Below the pieces are notes generated by a model, which did not search any database, was not told the origin of the DNA, and saw only the letters and a program-made list of their open reading frames with translations. Positions 1 to 7,762 of a stretch of DNA of 64,000 bases are shown in pieces. Position 1 is the stretch's first letter. Each line of letters begins with the position of its first letter. Made by a program: the position numbers and the translations under genes. The stretch comes from Candidatus Gastranaerophilales bacterium (GTDB taxonomy: Bacteria > Cyanobacteriota > Vampirovibrionia > Gastranaerophilales > Gastranaerophilaceae): positions 124,001 through 188,000 of the forward strand of contig CANQAV010000001.1 of NCBI GenBank assembly GCA_947589425.1, read 5' to 3'.

Positions 1-132
1 TTTATACTTATCAGGTGTTGCACGATGCATATTGAGCAACATAATAAGTGCCAAAAAGCCGATAACACAAAGTACTATCAGAATTTCAGCAAGCGTAAAG
101 CCATGTGTTTTTGTAATCTCACAAACTTTCAT
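1..132 (-). CDS. Prepilin-like protein, N-terminal 44 residues only (cut by window edge)
   Basis: The first 44 codons of a minus-strand gene are present; the rest lies beyond position 1. After ten mostly polar residues comes the prepilin peptidase site G11-FTLAEILIVL, with Glu at +5, followed by about 20 hydrophobic residues ending in RATPDK. That is the class III signal and N-terminal alpha helix of type IV pilins and pseudopilins. The RATPDK tail is shared with the next gene (346-1122), so the two are probably duplicates. It lies last in the minus-strand series of minor pilins, 213 bases after its neighbour, so it may have its own promoter. The protein should sit in the inner membrane until PilD-type cleavage and assembly into a pilus. 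Confidence 0.75.
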   Translation of the reverse strand, partial: MKVCEITKTHGFTLAEILIVLCVIGFLALIMLLNMHRATPDKYK

Positions 133-1272: not shown

Positions 1273-2370
1273 TTACCAAAGTATAAGCACGGCTCCATAC
1301 CTGTTATTGCGAGGATTAGTAATTGCTTCAAATAATTTTGCCGCAGGCTCAACATCTTTCATACAGCCGGCATCATCCGTACCCTTCTTAAGACAAGTTT
1401 GCGAAGAACTGCGTTTTGAAGAAATTGAGCCGACTATCATACTCATCTTGTCCCATGTTATATCGGAACGATAAGAGGAGTCTTTAAATAACAAATTAAC
1501 ACCAATCTGAGGGTTTGCAGAGCCGAGGATGCCGTAATTTGTTCTTCTGTTTGTCAGAGTAGATACATCCGAAAAATGACCTATTTCAAAAATCCCGTTA
1601 TCGGTATGATTACCGTCCTCGCCTGTTTTTACACAGCCGTTTAATTTAATTGCCATATAATGATCGCTCGGAGCACCGGAAGAATCATAAGCAGTAACTT
1701 CAACGGGAGAACAGCTTGTTTGCCTTAATGCCGCATCATCAACACAAGGTCTTCCCGCCGTAGTTAATCTGCATTCCGAAACATTAGATGCAATAATTGT
1801 ATGATTGTTTAAAATACCGTTTGTGGTTGTTGTTTGTTGATATCCTTTTGCATCTAAAATTTCAGCACCTAAATTATAATCGCCGTCTTCAATAATTAAA
1901 GGGGCAATTCTTGTAACACCGGACTCGTGGTTATTTTCATCATATACGCCGGGTCTTATTCCGATATCATTTCCCAGCTCGTCCGAATATGCGGTAATGA
2001 CCTGACCAAATCGACGTGCGGAACCGGTTTCATTATTACCCGCACCTCTTGCAACAACATAAAACCTGGCGGGACGCTGATTTAGTTTTAAAATACATAT
2101 ATCACCCGTATTTGTACTATCTGCAAGTTCTTTGGGCTCAGGCGAAAGAGTTGTTCTTTCATCTGACTGCCACTGATAAAGTCTGCCATCGTCCCACCAA
2201 CAGGCAAACTGTCCCCTTGTTGTAACAACTTCTTGCCGTTTTACGGTTTTTGTAATCAATGACATCATTAGAACGCAAACAAGCATTATAATTATCATTG
2301 AAACAAGCGTTTCAACAAGGGTAAAGCCTAAAAAGAATTTATTTTGTTTTGTTTTATGAGTTTGTTTCAT
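1273..2370 (-). CDS. Minor pilin-like protein (PilW/GspJ-like position), 365 aa
   Basis: The leader MKQTHKTKQNKFFLG is followed by FTLVETLVSMIIIMLVCVLM, a clear prepilin signal with Gly at -1 and Glu at +5. The transmembrane helix ends near residue 43 with KTVKRQE. The remaining 320 residues form an exported domain with cysteine pairs and no family I can name. The protein ends in YGAVLILW, an ending nearly shared by the next two upstream genes (SVIITW, GQIKILW). It begins seven bases after the stop of 2378-5713 and is surely cotranscribed with it. Size and place in the run fit a minor pilin that helps prime or tip a pilus; that role is inference. Confidence 0.75.
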   Translation of the reverse strand: MKQTHKTKQNKFFLGFTLVETLVSMIIIMLVCVLMMSLITKTVKRQEVVTTRGQFACWWDDGRLYQWQSDERTTLSPEPKELADSTNTGDICILKLNQRPARFYVVARGAGNNETGSARRFGQVITAYSDELGNDIGIRPGVYDENNHESGVTRIAPLIIEDGDYNLGAEILDAKGYQQTTTTNGILNNHTIIASNVSECRLTTAGRPCVDDAALRQTSCSPVEVTAYDSSGAPSDHYMAIKLNGCVKTGEDGNHTDNGIFEIGHFSDVSTLTNRRTNYGILGSANPQIGVNLLFKDSSYRSDITWDKMSMIVGSISSKRSSSQTCLKKGTDDAGCMKDVEPAAKLFEAITNPRNNRYGAVLILW

Positions 2371-2377
2371 TTTTATT

Positions 2378-5300
2378 CTACCAAGTAATTATAACAGAGC
2401 CGTCTCCGCCTTTGAGGTTTGTTTCTTGCGGCAAGTCAAATTGGTTTACAGTACCGCCTGCCATAGTAACAGCACCGGTGTAGATATTTTTGTCTCTATT
2501 ATACATAATTTTTGAAGGAGCATCTTTTAAAATCGAATTAGATCCTGCCGAGGAATTAAAGATTACTGCATCTCCGTAATTTGTATCAATATAATTATAT
2601 TCTGCACCTTTAGTACCGATTCCCGCACCGGAGCGACCTGCACCGAGACCGACAGCGCTGGAGTTTTTAACTATGGACTTAATTGAATCAAATCCCGAAG
2701 GCTTATATGCCGTCACATTCATATTAAATGAAGATTTTATATCGTTTCTCTGACAGCAATCTGTCGTTTTTGTGCCCGAAAAACACTGGTTAATTTTATC
2801 CACTCTTTGAAATTGCGGATTAGCTCTATATGCATATTCGTAAGTACCATGTATTGCTCCTCTGTCAAAAAGAGCATCGTCAAGGTGTTCATATATATTT
2901 GTCGAATCACCTGCATAACAAGGAACATATTTATCGGTTTCAAAGCCGCCTTTTCCGCCTTTTCCGCCTTTTGCAAAAAGAATTTGCTGATTAGCGGCAG
3001 CTCCAGGAACTCTAAGCGAAACTATTGTGTCGTGTCCGTTGTTGCCTTGAGGATTTCTTGCTCTTTTATTACTTTGTTCTACATAATATTTATAATTGAT
3101 TGCAGAAGTATTTGAAGCTCCGTCTTTTACAATAGCCTTCAAACTTAAATTACTAAATTGGGTCGAAGCCAAATCAGCAGCATTGGACAAATTCCAGTTT
3201 CCGCCGCTTCCGATTCTTACTACAAGATGAGTACCTCTTGCGGGAGTTTTAGGTATTTTGGTTGTAACATATTCGCCGGGGGTGCCTGCTTCGCCATATC
3301 CGAGCCATTTAATTGAAAAAGGATATGACCAGCTAAATTGTTCATTGTGCGGTTTTGATAAGTCTGGTCCTACACCCGCCGGCACGCTCCCTTCATCTGG
3401 CTCCCAAACATATGAATAACCGGATGTCCCCGTTTTTTCATCATGCCACTTTACCTTATTACCTTCTTTATCTGTTTGATAAACTCTATTTAAATTAAAA
3501 TTCGTGACATCGCCGCCAGATGCAGATGCACTAGCATCGTGTGTGGTTTTACATGCATCAGCTTGGAGGCTATTAGTTAATTTTTTGCAAGATGTTGGAG
3601 AACCGCCATTTGCAGATGCTGTTAGTGAAACTCCGCCCGACGCTGATTTAAAGGAAACACTGCAGCTTTTACCGGTATAGCCCAAGCATCCATCCATAGC
3701 AGGGGAGCTAAATTCACCGCAACTCTCTTTACTTCCCAAATCGACTGCACTTGTATTACCGTCTTTGCCTTTCAGTTTATCTCCTATTTCCCAAAAATTA
3801 TTAAAATCTAAATTGCAATCGGCATTACTTGAAGGATTAAAACTTTCGTCACCGCGAAGTTTTGAATAATCAGTTGAAGCAACTGCACAAGCTCCTGCGC
3901 CATAATAAGTATTAAGATTATAATAGGCTGTTTTATCTATGTGACATGGATTATCAAGCACACAACCGCTGTGATAATCTTTATAATTCCATTGAACGGC
4001 AGCACAAGCAGCACCGCCTGCACCACCGCAAGCTAAAACGGAAGGCTTGAATTTATGTTCTTTATCAATATTGTAATTACTATCCGTACCTTCAATCATT
4101 TCAATACTTCCCCATCTCGGAACATTGTATACTTCCGATCTTTGTCCGGGTCCGCCTAAAACTTTTGTATATGTCAAAACATCATGCGGGAAATAGTTTT
4201 TTCCGCTGCCGGGTGTAATAGGAACAACAATACGTTGTGATCCGCCAAAAACAGTAACTTGTCTATTTAAACCTAAATTATAGAAAAAGTCATCACCATA
4301 TTCTCTTCCTTGGTCACGGCAAAATCTGTGATCATCAGTTCTTATAGGGGTATCACTATCTTCATAGGTCGCTATTTTTCCATCCGCGCCTCTTTTAAAA
4401 CGGCAATTATGAGGTGCGTGTATATTTGCTCTGGTAATATTTCCGTACACACCGCCCCCTAAACGGCTATTAATATATTTTGCCGCTTCATCAATATTTC
4501 TAGTAATTTCCGTCTCCGCCATCAATGCTGATTCACCATAATTTTGGTCACCTTCCGGAGATACGATTTCCTCCGATAAAAACAGATTACCCCCCGCAGG
4601 AGCAAACCGCCCTACAATTGCATAATCCGCATCAAGATCGTCGGCATGGGTATGATGAGCGGCTACGTATGTTTTTGCCATGTCATATACCTGGTTAAGA
4701 GATACATGTTCTGACCTTCTATTAAACTCATTTCCGTCAGAATCGGCAACCTCTTGCGTATGAATCGGAACTGCAGCAACCGGCCCGCCGCCTGCACCGC
4801 CGCCGCCAACAGCGTGGACTACCATATCTTTTGCATTTTCCGGAAGTTCAAACATTGTTTCGCAATCTTCATCAAATCTTGCAACTCTTGTGTAATTACC
4901 ATGACCGTCGTTACACATTAAATGCCTGTCAATCATTGCATTGGAATTGCCCGAATAAAATCTTTCCCAAGGATAGGCAAGAAGTTGTGTATCTTGTTCG
5001 GAAGATTGATAATTTTCAACTATCCAAAGGTTTGCATGGTTTTGTGCAATAATTCCTCTGTCGGCTACATTAGTAAAAGGAATGCTTCTTGCAATCCTAT
5101 CATCAATTATTCTTCTGGAGCCGGGCGCTACTTCGCCGCCACCAAGCGCAAAGAAGTTAGCCGCAGCCGGGTCATCTTGGACAGTTACAGGGTTTGCTGC
5201 CTCATTAACCGTAACTCTTTTATAGTTAATACTTGCATCATCAAAAAGCCATCTGCCCCCTCTTTTAACAACTTCCGTATGTTCAGTATTGTCACGTGAT

Positions 5301-5713
5301 GAAGTAATTCTAACTCTTGCATCCGTAATTGAGCCGTCGGCATTGATAATAGGTACCGCATCATAATATTCAATATAATACAAATTACCATCGGGACTGA
5401 CGGCACCATCGGGTATGACGGCGGATGTAATTCTCTCATAAACTCTAATTTTTTGTTTTGATTTTGTATCAGGGATTTTTTCAAAATAATCATCTCCGAT
5501 TTTTAAGATTTCCTTGGTAAAAACTTCATATCTGCCGTGGGCGCCCCCTCCGAGAGTTGAATTTGCATCAGAAAAGTTTGCAAGTTTTCTTGTTAAAGAA
5601 GGTGTCATTGCGGCAACCGCAACCGCAACCGCCACAACAATAATAGCCGTTTCTAAAATCGAGAAAGCTGATTTTAAATTTTTTTTCTTTTTTTCAATTT
5701 TCATAATTCTCAT
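2378..5713 (-). CDS. Giant pilin-like protein with glycine-rich domain (candidate pilus-tip adhesin), 1111 aa
   Basis: The N-terminus is prepilin-like: a lysine-rich leader, Ala16 at -1, then FSILETAIIVVAVAVAVAAM (Glu at +5) and one hydrophobic helix. The remaining roughly 1070 residues are far longer than a normal pilin. They contain glycine-rich runs (AVGGGGAGGGP near residue 300, CGGAGGAAC, GKGGKGG, GAGRSGAGIGTKGAE) and end in KGGDGSVIITW. This is the pattern of the glycine-rich fold seen in phage tail-fibre and some adhesin domains. Many cysteines are present. The ATG at 5713 follows an AAGGGAT ribosome site, supporting this start. It lies 21 bases after 5735-6541 in the same operon. I infer an adhesin mounted on a pilus through its pilin-like helix, in the way large minor pilins or PilY1-type proteins act. 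Confidence 0.7.
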   Translation of the reverse strand: MRIMKIEKKKKNLKSAFSILETAIIVVAVAVAVAAMTPSLTRKLANFSDANSTLGGGAHGRYEVFTKEILKIGDDYFEKIPDTKSKQKIRVYERITSAVIPDGAVSPDGNLYYIEYYDAVPIINADGSITDARVRITSSRDNTEHTEVVKRGGRWLFDDASINYKRVTVNEAANPVTVQDDPAAANFFALGGGEVAPGSRRIIDDRIARSIPFTNVADRGIIAQNHANLWIVENYQSSEQDTQLLAYPWERFYSGNSNAMIDRHLMCNDGHGNYTRVARFDEDCETMFELPENAKDMVVHAVGGGGAGGGPVAAVPIHTQEVADSDGNEFNRRSEHVSLNQVYDMAKTYVAAHHTHADDLDADYAIVGRFAPAGGNLFLSEEIVSPEGDQNYGESALMAETEITRNIDEAAKYINSRLGGGVYGNITRANIHAPHNCRFKRGADGKIATYEDSDTPIRTDDHRFCRDQGREYGDDFFYNLGLNRQVTVFGGSQRIVVPITPGSGKNYFPHDVLTYTKVLGGPGQRSEVYNVPRWGSIEMIEGTDSNYNIDKEHKFKPSVLACGGAGGAACAAVQWNYKDYHSGCVLDNPCHIDKTAYYNLNTYYGAGACAVASTDYSKLRGDESFNPSSNADCNLDFNNFWEIGDKLKGKDGNTSAVDLGSKESCGEFSSPAMDGCLGYTGKSCSVSFKSASGGVSLTASANGGSPTSCKKLTNSLQADACKTTHDASASASGGDVTNFNLNRVYQTDKEGNKVKWHDEKTGTSGYSYVWEPDEGSVPAGVGPDLSKPHNEQFSWSYPFSIKWLGYGEAGTPGEYVTTKIPKTPARGTHLVVRIGSGGNWNLSNAADLASTQFSNLSLKAIVKDGASNTSAINYKYYVEQSNKRARNPQGNNGHDTIVSLRVPGAAANQQILFAKGGKGGKGGFETDKYVPCYAGDSTNIYEHLDDALFDRGAIHGTYEYAYRANPQFQRVDKINQCFSGTKTTDCCQRNDIKSSFNMNVTAYKPSGFDSIKSIVKNSSAVGLGAGRSGAGIGTKGAEYNYIDTNYGDAVIFNSSAGSNSILKDAPSKIMYNRDKNIYTGAVTMAGGTVNQFDLPQETNLKGGDGSVIITW

Positions 5714-5734
5714 ATATCCCTTTTAATTCCATTT

Positions 5735-6541
5735 TTACCATAAAATCTTAATTTGACCGTACAATCCGGCTTCGTTTGCAGCACCGCTCATTCCGCATGT
5801 TTGACTGAATGCGCTTTGCTTTGCTTGTGTATATTCGTCTGCTTCCGGACTTGTTGCATCTATATCCAAACCTTCCGGAAAGTCTTCATTTGTTGTAACA
5901 CCGCCTCTTGCTCTTGCAAGTTCATACCAATTATTGCCTGCTGCGCCGTTATCACCAAGAAGGTCTTTAAAAGTATCGGGATTGGTTGCATTTGGCAGCC
6001 AAAATAAAACAGTATCTTGTCCGTTAGTGTTATTTTCTCCGCCTTGACCTATGTGGAAATAGTATAGTCCGTTCATGGCAGGAAGATAGAGCGTTTTAGA
6101 TTCACCCGGAGTTCCGGCAAGATGCGCTCCGCCGCCTCCGCCGCCGCCGATTAAGTGTATTGTTACAAATTCATTTCTGTTTGGGTCAAGAGGGTCTCTG
6201 TTGGTACTGTTTTGATTAACTACGCAATAAGCCGTATTAGCGGTTGTACCGTCTTGAGCCGCATCAAATGCACATTCGCTGCTTACGAATACAAATATAT
6301 TTCTGTCATTAAACTGATCTCTGTTTGCGGCAGTGCAATCATCAAACGGAAAAGTCCACTCTCCCGAAGGAGAAGCCATGTCATTTGTATAATGGTTTTT
6401 CTTAATTGCTACCGAAAGAATCATGGCAAGCACGAAAAACGAAATCATCATACTCATCATAAACTCTATTATTGTAAATCCATCTCTTCGCAAGTTGCTT
6501 TTCCTTATTTTATACAATGGCATTATAATACCATTCGGCAT
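5735..6541 (-). CDS. Minor pilin-like protein with glycine-rich domain, 268 aa
   Basis: The first gene of the minus-strand pilin run. The leader ends in RRDG21, followed by FTIIEFMMSMMISFFVLAMI, a prepilin signal with Glu at +5. The exported part holds a glycine run (HLIGGGGGGGAHLAGTPGES, about residues 130-150), then an IGQGG segment, and ends in YGQIKILW. It looks like a shortened version of the glycine-rich module of the 1111-residue neighbour. An ATG at 6523 is an alternative start that shortens the leader to 15 residues, which is more typical; neither has a clear ribosome site. A divergent prepilin starts 102 bases away on the other strand, so the intergenic space 6542-6643 should hold promoters in both directions. 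Confidence 0.72.
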   Translation of the reverse strand: MPNGIIMPLYKIRKSNLRRDGFTIIEFMMSMMISFFVLAMILSVAIKKNHYTNDMASPSGEWTFPFDDCTAANRDQFNDRNIFVFVSSECAFDAAQDGTTANTAYCVVNQNSTNRDPLDPNRNEFVTIHLIGGGGGGGAHLAGTPGESKTLYLPAMNGLYYFHIGQGGENNTNGQDTVLFWLPNATNPDTFKDLLGDNGAAGNNWYELARARGGVTTNEDFPEGLDIDATSPEADEYTQAKQSAFSQTCGMSGAANEAGLYGQIKILW

Positions 6542-6643: not shown

Positions 6644-7762
6644 ATGATAATAAGAAAAAAAGCGTTTACATTGGCTGAAATGCTGATTGTTATGACAATT
6701 ATAGGCATCATTGTTGTTTTGGGGCTGATTACCTTAAACGGTGTGATGAACGACTATGGAGCATCTTATTACAATGCATATTTAACTCTTAAAAAAGCTG
6801 CGTACAATGTTTTAGCGGATCCGTATTGTCCGGATGCAACATCGGGGGGAGAAATATGCCCCGACGGTACAAGAGCATTTCCGACAACTTCGCAGGAGCT
6901 ATGCTTGAGGTTAACCGAATTTATCAACGTTGCAAGTGATGACGAAAACGGAATAAGATGCGATGCTCAGTTTGCGGCAAAACCGGACGGTACTACATTT
7001 TTAAATGACGGAAATAATGTCAATAGCTCAAATCCTAATAATGTAGTTGGTTTTACTTCCAGTAATTCATACAGATATTATATATCAAACAAGCTCAGCT
7101 ACCTTATCTCAAAGAAAACCGAAGCTGTTTCAAGCAATTTTCAAGAAACCGAGTGTCATTATAACTGTCTTGAAGATTCAAAAGGGAATAGAAATTGCTT
7201 TCTTGTATACTGCGAAAGAAACGGCACAAACGAAAGCGAAGACAGGCTTGATAATAACGGATTTTATGTAACTAATTTCTTTGTGGTTTTTGTTGATATA
7301 AACGGCAAGAAAACTCCAAACAGAACAAATAAAACATCAAGACAAACAATATATCCCGATATTGTTCCTTTTATCGTGACTACAAAAGGAGATGTTATCC
7401 CCGTCGGATATCCGGTATTTGACCTTAGATATATGTCGGCAAAAGTTAAATATCCCGATTATAAAATGGAAGCAGGAAATCCTGTTATAAGAGCGCAGGA
7501 AGAAATGTTTTCAAAAAGTGAAACATACGAAAATGCAAGAACGGAAGCATGGGGAAATGAAAGTATGAACGCAAATATACCAATGAGCGTTGATTATAAC
7601 AAAATTGATATCTTGAGACCTTTGTATACAAATGTATTAGATAAAACCGGTGCTCAAGTTACACCGAATTGGGCAAGTTCATTCAATGAGGCACAAGGAT
7701 GCGAAGAAAACTCCGCCGCTTGCAGAGTTATAGTTGACAGCTTTAAAGAAAGAAGATTTTAA
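6644..7762 (+). CDS. Type IV prepilin-like protein, 372 aa
   Basis: A very short leader, MIIRKKA, precedes FTLAEMLIVMTIIGIIVVLG, a textbook prepilin helix with Ala at -1 and Glu at +5. The soluble part has several cysteines, including a cluster near residues 167-190 (ECHYNC, NCFLVYC), and a VFVDINGKKTPN segment like the one in G-type pseudopilins. A GGAG ribosome site lies about 10 bases before the ATG. It is divergent from the minus-strand pilin run and directly followed (nine bases) by a glycosyltransferase, which might modify pilin or surface glycans. It probably takes part in the same pilus; it could also be the major pseudopilin of a secretion system. Confidence 0.78.
   Translation: MIIRKKAFTLAEMLIVMTIIGIIVVLGLITLNGVMNDYGASYYNAYLTLKKAAYNVLADPYCPDATSGGEICPDGTRAFPTTSQELCLRLTEFINVASDDENGIRCDAQFAAKPDGTTFLNDGNNVNSSNPNNVVGFTSSNSYRYYISNKLSYLISKKTEAVSSNFQETECHYNCLEDSKGNRNCFLVYCERNGTNESEDRLDNNGFYVTNFFVVFVDINGKKTPNRTNKTSRQTIYPDIVPFIVTTKGDVIPVGYPVFDLRYMSAKVKYPDYKMEAGNPVIRAQEEMFSKSETYENARTEAWGNESMNANIPMSVDYNKIDILRPLYTNVLDKTGAQVTPNWASSFNEAQGCEENSAACRVIVDSFKERRF

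Follow-up and report, generated by a model that had tools for sequence, protein, structure and literature searches.

What would be built by neighbouring pilin-like proteins, one of them 1111 residues long, that carry glycine-rich heads and all close on a tryptophan? The locus that raises this question lies in a 64,000-nucleotide stretch (hereafter the window, with positions counted from its first letter) of the 1.87-Mb genome of Candidatus Gastranaerophilales bacterium (G000). A sequence-only reading had proposed that two adjacent genes, of 1111 and 268 residues, join a prepilin helix to a phage-fibre-like glycine-rich domain (GRD), one product acting as tip adhesin and the other as its scaffold. 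The two open reading frames (ORFs) were found exactly at 2378-5713 (the giant protein) and 5735-6541 (the small protein), both on the minus strand. A 365-aa neighbour (1273-2370, minus) is a prepilin of the same set and hence belongs to the finding. These three genes are separated by 21 and 7 bases and hence probably form one operon. Our computations covered motifs, fold, synteny, the persistence of the whole set of three (the trio) and the presence of pilus machinery. We consider it fairly likely that the trio members are modular minor pilins and together form a heterotrimeric, phage-fibre-like tip on a type IV pilus, with loops that bind a surface ligand.

Results

All three proteins share the ending G-x-[VIL]-x-[IL]-x-W, an alternating hydrophobic strand followed by tryptophan. 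The giant ends KGGDGSVIITW, the small protein LYGQIKILW and the 365-aa protein RYGAVLILW. The window contains 54 non-overlapping ORFs of at least 100 aa, and a terminal tryptophan was confined to these three neighbours, being absent from the other 51. When related loci (L043-L057 and L088-L099) were scanned, the ending G-x-[hydrophobic]-x-[hydrophobic]-x-W was present in 53 ORFs, and none of the 211 others ended in tryptophan. The shared ending picked out from the sequence was conserved in orthologues of all three proteins: GAVLILW was invariant in 11 of 11 orthologues of the 365-aa type, GGDGAVIITW was near-invariant among giant orthologues, and Ile266 and Trp268 were invariant in 10 small-protein orthologues.

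The N-termini are those of prepilins. A basic leader, Gly/Ala at -1, Phe/Tyr at +1, Glu at +5 and a hydrophobic helix were found in 49/49 trio members with a recognisable N-terminus, and the motifs in the window are KSA/FSILE, RDG/FTIIE and FLG/FTLVE (slash, cleavage site). Residues 1-48 of the small protein (6398-6541, minus) hold the leader, the Gly-1/Phe+1/Glu+5 motif and a model helix at 24-48. Residues 1-45 of the giant (5579-5713, minus) hold the leader, with cleavage predicted after Ala16, Phe+1, Glu+5 and a hydrophobic helix (19-45 in the model). The prepilin helix that had been proposed is thus borne out by motif and models alike. The head starts at an HG/RG motif, which lies between mature residues 34 and 43 and most often at 37, a near-fixed spacing from the helix; this spacing and the models suggest that there is no room for a small pilin domain between helix and head. 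Against Pfam N_methyl and NCBIfam IV_pilin_GFxxxE, the 268-aa (18.7 bits) and 365-aa (14.7 bits) proteins stayed below the curated cut-off and the giant had no match; 18 of 33 trio relatives matched N_methyl at E 0.01. N_methyl recognises about ten prepilins in the genome, five of them within this cluster.

The same genome encodes, over cut-off, an A24 prepilin peptidase (G000:C1:57343-58563), T2SSE (GspE/PilB), T2SSF (GspF/PilC) and Secretin, together with two PilT-like ATPases. Motifs, synteny and the presence of the peptidase make leader cleavage, a tip position and adhesion plausible. The PilY1 tip adhesin domain (PF05567) had no match in the genome, and control genomes likewise had none above cut-off. 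Type IV pilus (T4P) genes were noted earlier in Gastranaerophilales (PMC5877343). A two-partner-secretion transporter (ShlB/POTRA; L105:1958-3739, plus) adjoins the pilus motor and secretin genes of the genome.

Single-chain AlphaFold models of the small and giant proteins were built from 14 and 19 aligned sequences, respectively. The small protein (trio member 1, ending YGQIKILW) is modelled with a compact TNF-like/glycine-rich head at residues 104-268 (5738-6232, minus), a domain also indicated by structural matches, with strands at 104-110, 125-131, 148-154, 158-164, 177-182, 206-211 and 263-267. In the giant (trio member 3, ending DGSVIITW), GRD strands were modelled at 295-302, 815-822, 829-833, 896-901, 909-914 and 1106-1110, mostly at a predicted local distance difference test score (pLDDT) of about 77-90. 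Block 2 (residues 295-310; 4784-4831, minus; pLDDT about 80) is a VVHAVGGGGAGGG-type strand with a glycine run and is near-invariant across five orthologues. Two GRD strands each are held by block 3 (residues 806-840, YGEAGTPGEY...LVVRIGSGGNW; 3194-3298, minus) and block 4 (residues 893-920, GHDTIVSL...ILFAKGGKGG; 2954-3037, minus), and the closing strand 1106-1110 lies in residues 1101-1111 (2381-2413, minus; pLDDT about 80).

In Foldseek searches of the PDB with the small model, the top matches were ALK, the Pam3 fibre and LTK. With a second aligner, the small model matched the Pam3 fibre 7ypx at Z 10.7 (132 residues, 3.5 A), the Bxb1 tail tip at Z 9.0 and twelve ALK/LTK entries at Z 7.2-8.0; the next, unrelated entry had Z 3.2. 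The giant model matched Bxb1 at Z 11.0 and ALK/LTK at Z 8.3-9.4, with all else at or below 3.5. Among viral predicted structures, the small model matched phage minor tail and glycine-rich proteins with a probability of 0.97-1.00. The order of the strands was identical in the two models. Since it shares this order and the matches to Bxb1 and ALK with the small protein, the giant is, as modelled, a single TNF-like/GRD domain between whose strands several hundred residues are inserted. The common C-terminal fold expected from the sequence was therefore recovered in both proteins, and the models support well a TNF-like/GRD fold of phage fibres and ALK in the small and giant heads.

Towards its N-terminus (about residues 75-290) the giant carries a further insertion, which is doubled in some relatives (L045 and L088). 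In those two giants, residues of about 105-390 form a tandem module of two copies, each ending in an I(I/V)EGN.T motif and LW; the giant of the window holds one degenerate copy.

Sequence profiles gave evidence independent of structure prediction. At E 0.01, Pfam PF21722 (Gly_rich_2) was matched by 11 of 33 trio relatives, the best match (3.5e-18; 66.9 bits, over cut-off) being that of L054, from a GRD-pilin trio of another genus, and seven relatives matched PHROG 863 (tail fibre assembly), of the phage PHROG families. The assignment to a glycine-rich family thus held for relatives, but the window's own proteins stayed under the PF21722 cut-off. Alignment of the small and giant family profiles with hhalign covered the helix only and not the heads, so the case for a head common to these two proteins rests on structure and shared blocks. 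The 365-aa protein (trio member 2) has lost its glycine runs. Its family aligned with the glycine-rich position-2 pilins of other genera (profile-profile E 1e-19, 199 columns) and with the small-protein family (E 2.5e-10), and these alignments identify it as a probable glycine-poor version of the GRD head. Sequence searches of the PDB with the trio profile returned pilin helices and one chance-level match, and with the L054 protein no match. Phage tblastn searches with the small protein and with the 458-aa L054 relative had no match, and so gave no sign of a recent phage donor. Pfam CBM_20 and DPF scored under cut-off on the giant and were discarded as chance.

Conservation and gene order

Scanning genome contigs with the giant alone found nothing. 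With the family profile, nine loci came up in the named collection, all of them in Candidatus Gastranaerophilales. At E 1e-6, 19 of the 28 genomes of the genus held relatives of the giant; some of these were matches to the pilin helix only or fragments at contig ends. The order within the genus is divergent prepilin, small protein, 315-357 aa protein, giant and GspG-like prepilin, and the endings are GEVIIRW or GGVIIKW (small), GAVLILW (315-357 aa) and GGDGAVIITW (giant). A divergent prepilin, three GRD pilins and a GspG-like prepilin occurred together at L044-L047, L050, L051, L053, L055, L088, L090, L092 and L094, of which L050, L051, L053 and L055 are from other genera; three GRD pilins were also present in two genomes of another genus (L052, L054). 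The window (1273-5713) has the giant and the 365-aa gene swapped relative to all syntenic relatives read (L044-L047).

A profile (A7) reaching from the helix up to the first run of glycines had matches in 176/191 genomes of the family, the weaker ones being general pilins. Among the matches listed (E 2e-18 or better), exactly three lay together in each of 30 clusters, which were spread over 29 genomes of six genera. In four genomes (G163, G161, G013 and G050) the giant is unlinked; the other two genes stay paired and the giant is still in the genome. The three are retained as a set even in genomes where the giant lies apart, and such co-retention is our main reason to suggest that the three GRD pilins work together. 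Outside the family, A7 matches were weak (E 1e-4 to 2e-8), no better than the pilin helix by itself would be expected to score, and were left out of the count of GRD pilins.

On the minus strand of the window, the genes read 268, 1111, 365, 258 and 559 aa. The 258-aa product (346-1122, minus) is a prepilin of GspG/ComGC-like type by Pfam and NCBIfam N-terminal matches and synteny. It is neither rich in glycine nor ended by tryptophan, and in relatives, where it ends ...EYLKS.., it is the constant downstream neighbour of the trio. The constant upstream neighbour is the divergent 372-aa prepilin (6644-7762, plus; synteny and an N_methyl score of 23.7 bits, over cut-off), whose orthologues end CRVVIDS..RF or CDVVFEQYY. 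Only the first 44 codons of the 559-aa prepilin, a paralogue of the 346-1122 product, are in the window (1-132, minus; N_methyl match at G000:C1:124037-124111). Its remainder extends left beyond the window, and the full gene is at L043:12453-14132 (minus). The long C-terminal tail of this prepilin, with CTGSGCNP-KPDPDSKSTSTSSSV repeats and GGGSSGT repeats, is a further tail type within the same pilin cluster.

Other arrangements were observed in relatives. L157 (G206) has two complete GRD-pilin trios head to head, an inverted duplication with diverged heads; the first residues are nearly identical on both sides (MHSWRMDLMKCRGFSLAE and MVKRGFSLAEALVV), and the position-2 proteins are just 159 and 164 aa and still end ISW. 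At L046:526-1296 (plus), about 7 kb from the trio and beyond other genes, a 256-aa glycine-rich ORF without a prepilin helix ends SGYIRIENGNT and is possibly a free GRD protein.

Discussion

In the reading that we favour, class III (prepilin) leaders would be cut by the genome-encoded prepilin peptidase, and each head would be one TNF-like jelly roll with glycine-rich loops, placed directly after about 36 mature residues. Once bundled, the three helices would prime a type IV filament, and the PilB/PilC/PilT-like motor and secretin of the same genome would drive it. Side by side, the three jelly rolls may associate into a heterotrimeric "torch", comparable to the homotrimeric Pam3 fibre. The glycine-rich loops, of which those of the giant are hugely extended, would point outward and could attach to a ligand on the surface of gut mucus, food particles or other cells.

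We propose such a tip because of minor-pilin tips, the PilABC and Kil Tip heterotrimers and the Pam3 fibre trimer. Adjacent minor pilins prime the filament and remain at its tip in known systems (PMC10191384), and the minor pilin genes here are contiguous, as for an HIJK-type tip. The PilABC tip of Streptococcus sanguinis has been modelled or proposed as a heterotrimer with extra domains (PMC9934059, PMC8179133). As in the trio, PilB and PilC join a prepilin N-terminus to a non-pilin ligand-binding module, several per locus (PMC8179133, PMC9934059). However, the vWA and lectin modules of S. sanguinis are grafted onto a small pilin module (PMC8179133), whereas in the trio a TNF-like/GRD head nearly directly follows a short helix on each of three neighbours. 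Kil Tips (KilLMN/TadEFG of Myxococcus and Tad pili) likewise have three adjacent minor pilins, one very large, and paralogous sets within one genome, and they have been modelled as heterotrimers with one large member (PMC12075869). They belong to the Tad/Flp pilus class, the extra domain of the large member is unrelated, and a GRD has not been reported in them. Cyanophage Pam3 gp24 is a trimer with TNF-like and glycine-rich receptor-binding domains on an alpha-helical stem (PMC9608196). Pam3 gp24 and the Bxb1 tail tip share with the trio the TNF-like and glycine-rich domain and the closing C-terminal strand; unlike the trio, they are virion proteins, with a homotrimer and a dedicated chaperone, and have no prepilin signal. 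The glycine-rich (TG) domain of ALK/LTK has the same fold (Z 7.2-9.4); however, these are animal receptor kinases with a sequence identity of about 17%, and the likeness noted is one of fold.

Several observations weigh against the proposed fold and tip. Mean pLDDT was 63 for the small model, with its domain mostly at 70-87, and 44.8 for the giant, mostly of low confidence, the GRD strands being at about 70-90. Foldseek E-values against the PDB were weak (8e-3 and worse) and template modelling (TM) scores were low, so the case for the fold rests on the Z-scores, the gap in ranking and the sequence matches of relatives. The small protein scored 12.1 bits (13.5 in the genome scan) against the PF21722 cut-off of 24.3. 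G161 carries two giants, so the members are not always one of each, and G127, G021 and G154 of the same genus had pilin-helix matches only and seem to be without the trio. (G021 has 36 N-termini resembling those of prepilins, many of them belonging to ORFs of 400-1000 aa; these make up a large set of other modular pilins.) Glu5 is kept in 49/49 GRD pilins, with no capping-type subunit. The classical tip complex has a capping subunit without Glu5 (PMC10191384), which argues against plain equivalence with HIJK.

Glu5 also bears on where else these proteins could sit. The GRD pilins could instead cap the short pseudopilus of a type II secretion system (T2SS)-like machine and select secreted proteins. 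The motor and secretin family is common to T2SS and T4P, the 346-1122 neighbour is GspG-like, and HIJK minor pilins touch substrates in T2SS (PMC10191384). However, the genome has two PilT-like retraction ATPases, as is typical of T4P and not of T2SS, no trio member lacks Glu5 as GspK does, and NCBIfam gsp equivalog cut-offs were not reached. We regard this role as unlikely. With Glu5 in all members, all could also enter the shaft, and non-core minor pilins may be distributed along a filament (PMC10191384), so that the three would be system-specific minor pilins with no single tip complex. Heads of up to about 1065 residues fit poorly in a shaft, and the genes persist as a set of three, unlinked ones included; this arrangement seems to us more improbable still. 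Least probable is the tip of a DNA-uptake (competence) pilus, with heads binding DNA as is thought for the ComZ beta-solenoid in Thermus, since the ComEC-family protein of the genome (E 5.9e-57) is of a kind matched in 10/14 control genomes, the resemblance of the N-termini to ComG pilins reflects the helix alone, and the relatives of the fold bind proteins or surface receptors, even though retraction ATPases are present.

For the phage-fibre-like tip, a role as tip adhesin is plausible from motifs and synteny. The division into adhesin and scaffold did not stand; nothing marks the small protein as a scaffold, that role was dropped, and the unit is three GRD-headed pilins. Our literature search returned no minor pilin with a glycine-rich domain, with a prior listing among 264 architectures (PMC8179133, Dataset S1) being possible, and nothing that linked the glycine-rich fold of phage fibres or ALK to pilins. 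We raise more tentatively, as somewhat short of an even chance, a novel class of pilus tip, heterotrimeric, in which an ALK/phage-fibre-type head replaces the pilin head in three pilins, specific to one family of gut relatives of Cyanobacteriota.

Modular pilins would gain a new domain type and a three-member arrangement, and a receptor-binding fold of phage fibres, also that of the animal ALK receptor, would be tied to a bacterial pilus. The trio is a concrete candidate for surface attachment by the poorly studied gut Gastranaerophilales, whose pili may carry a grasping tip of three parts. If true, a cellular pilus would end like a phage tail fibre.

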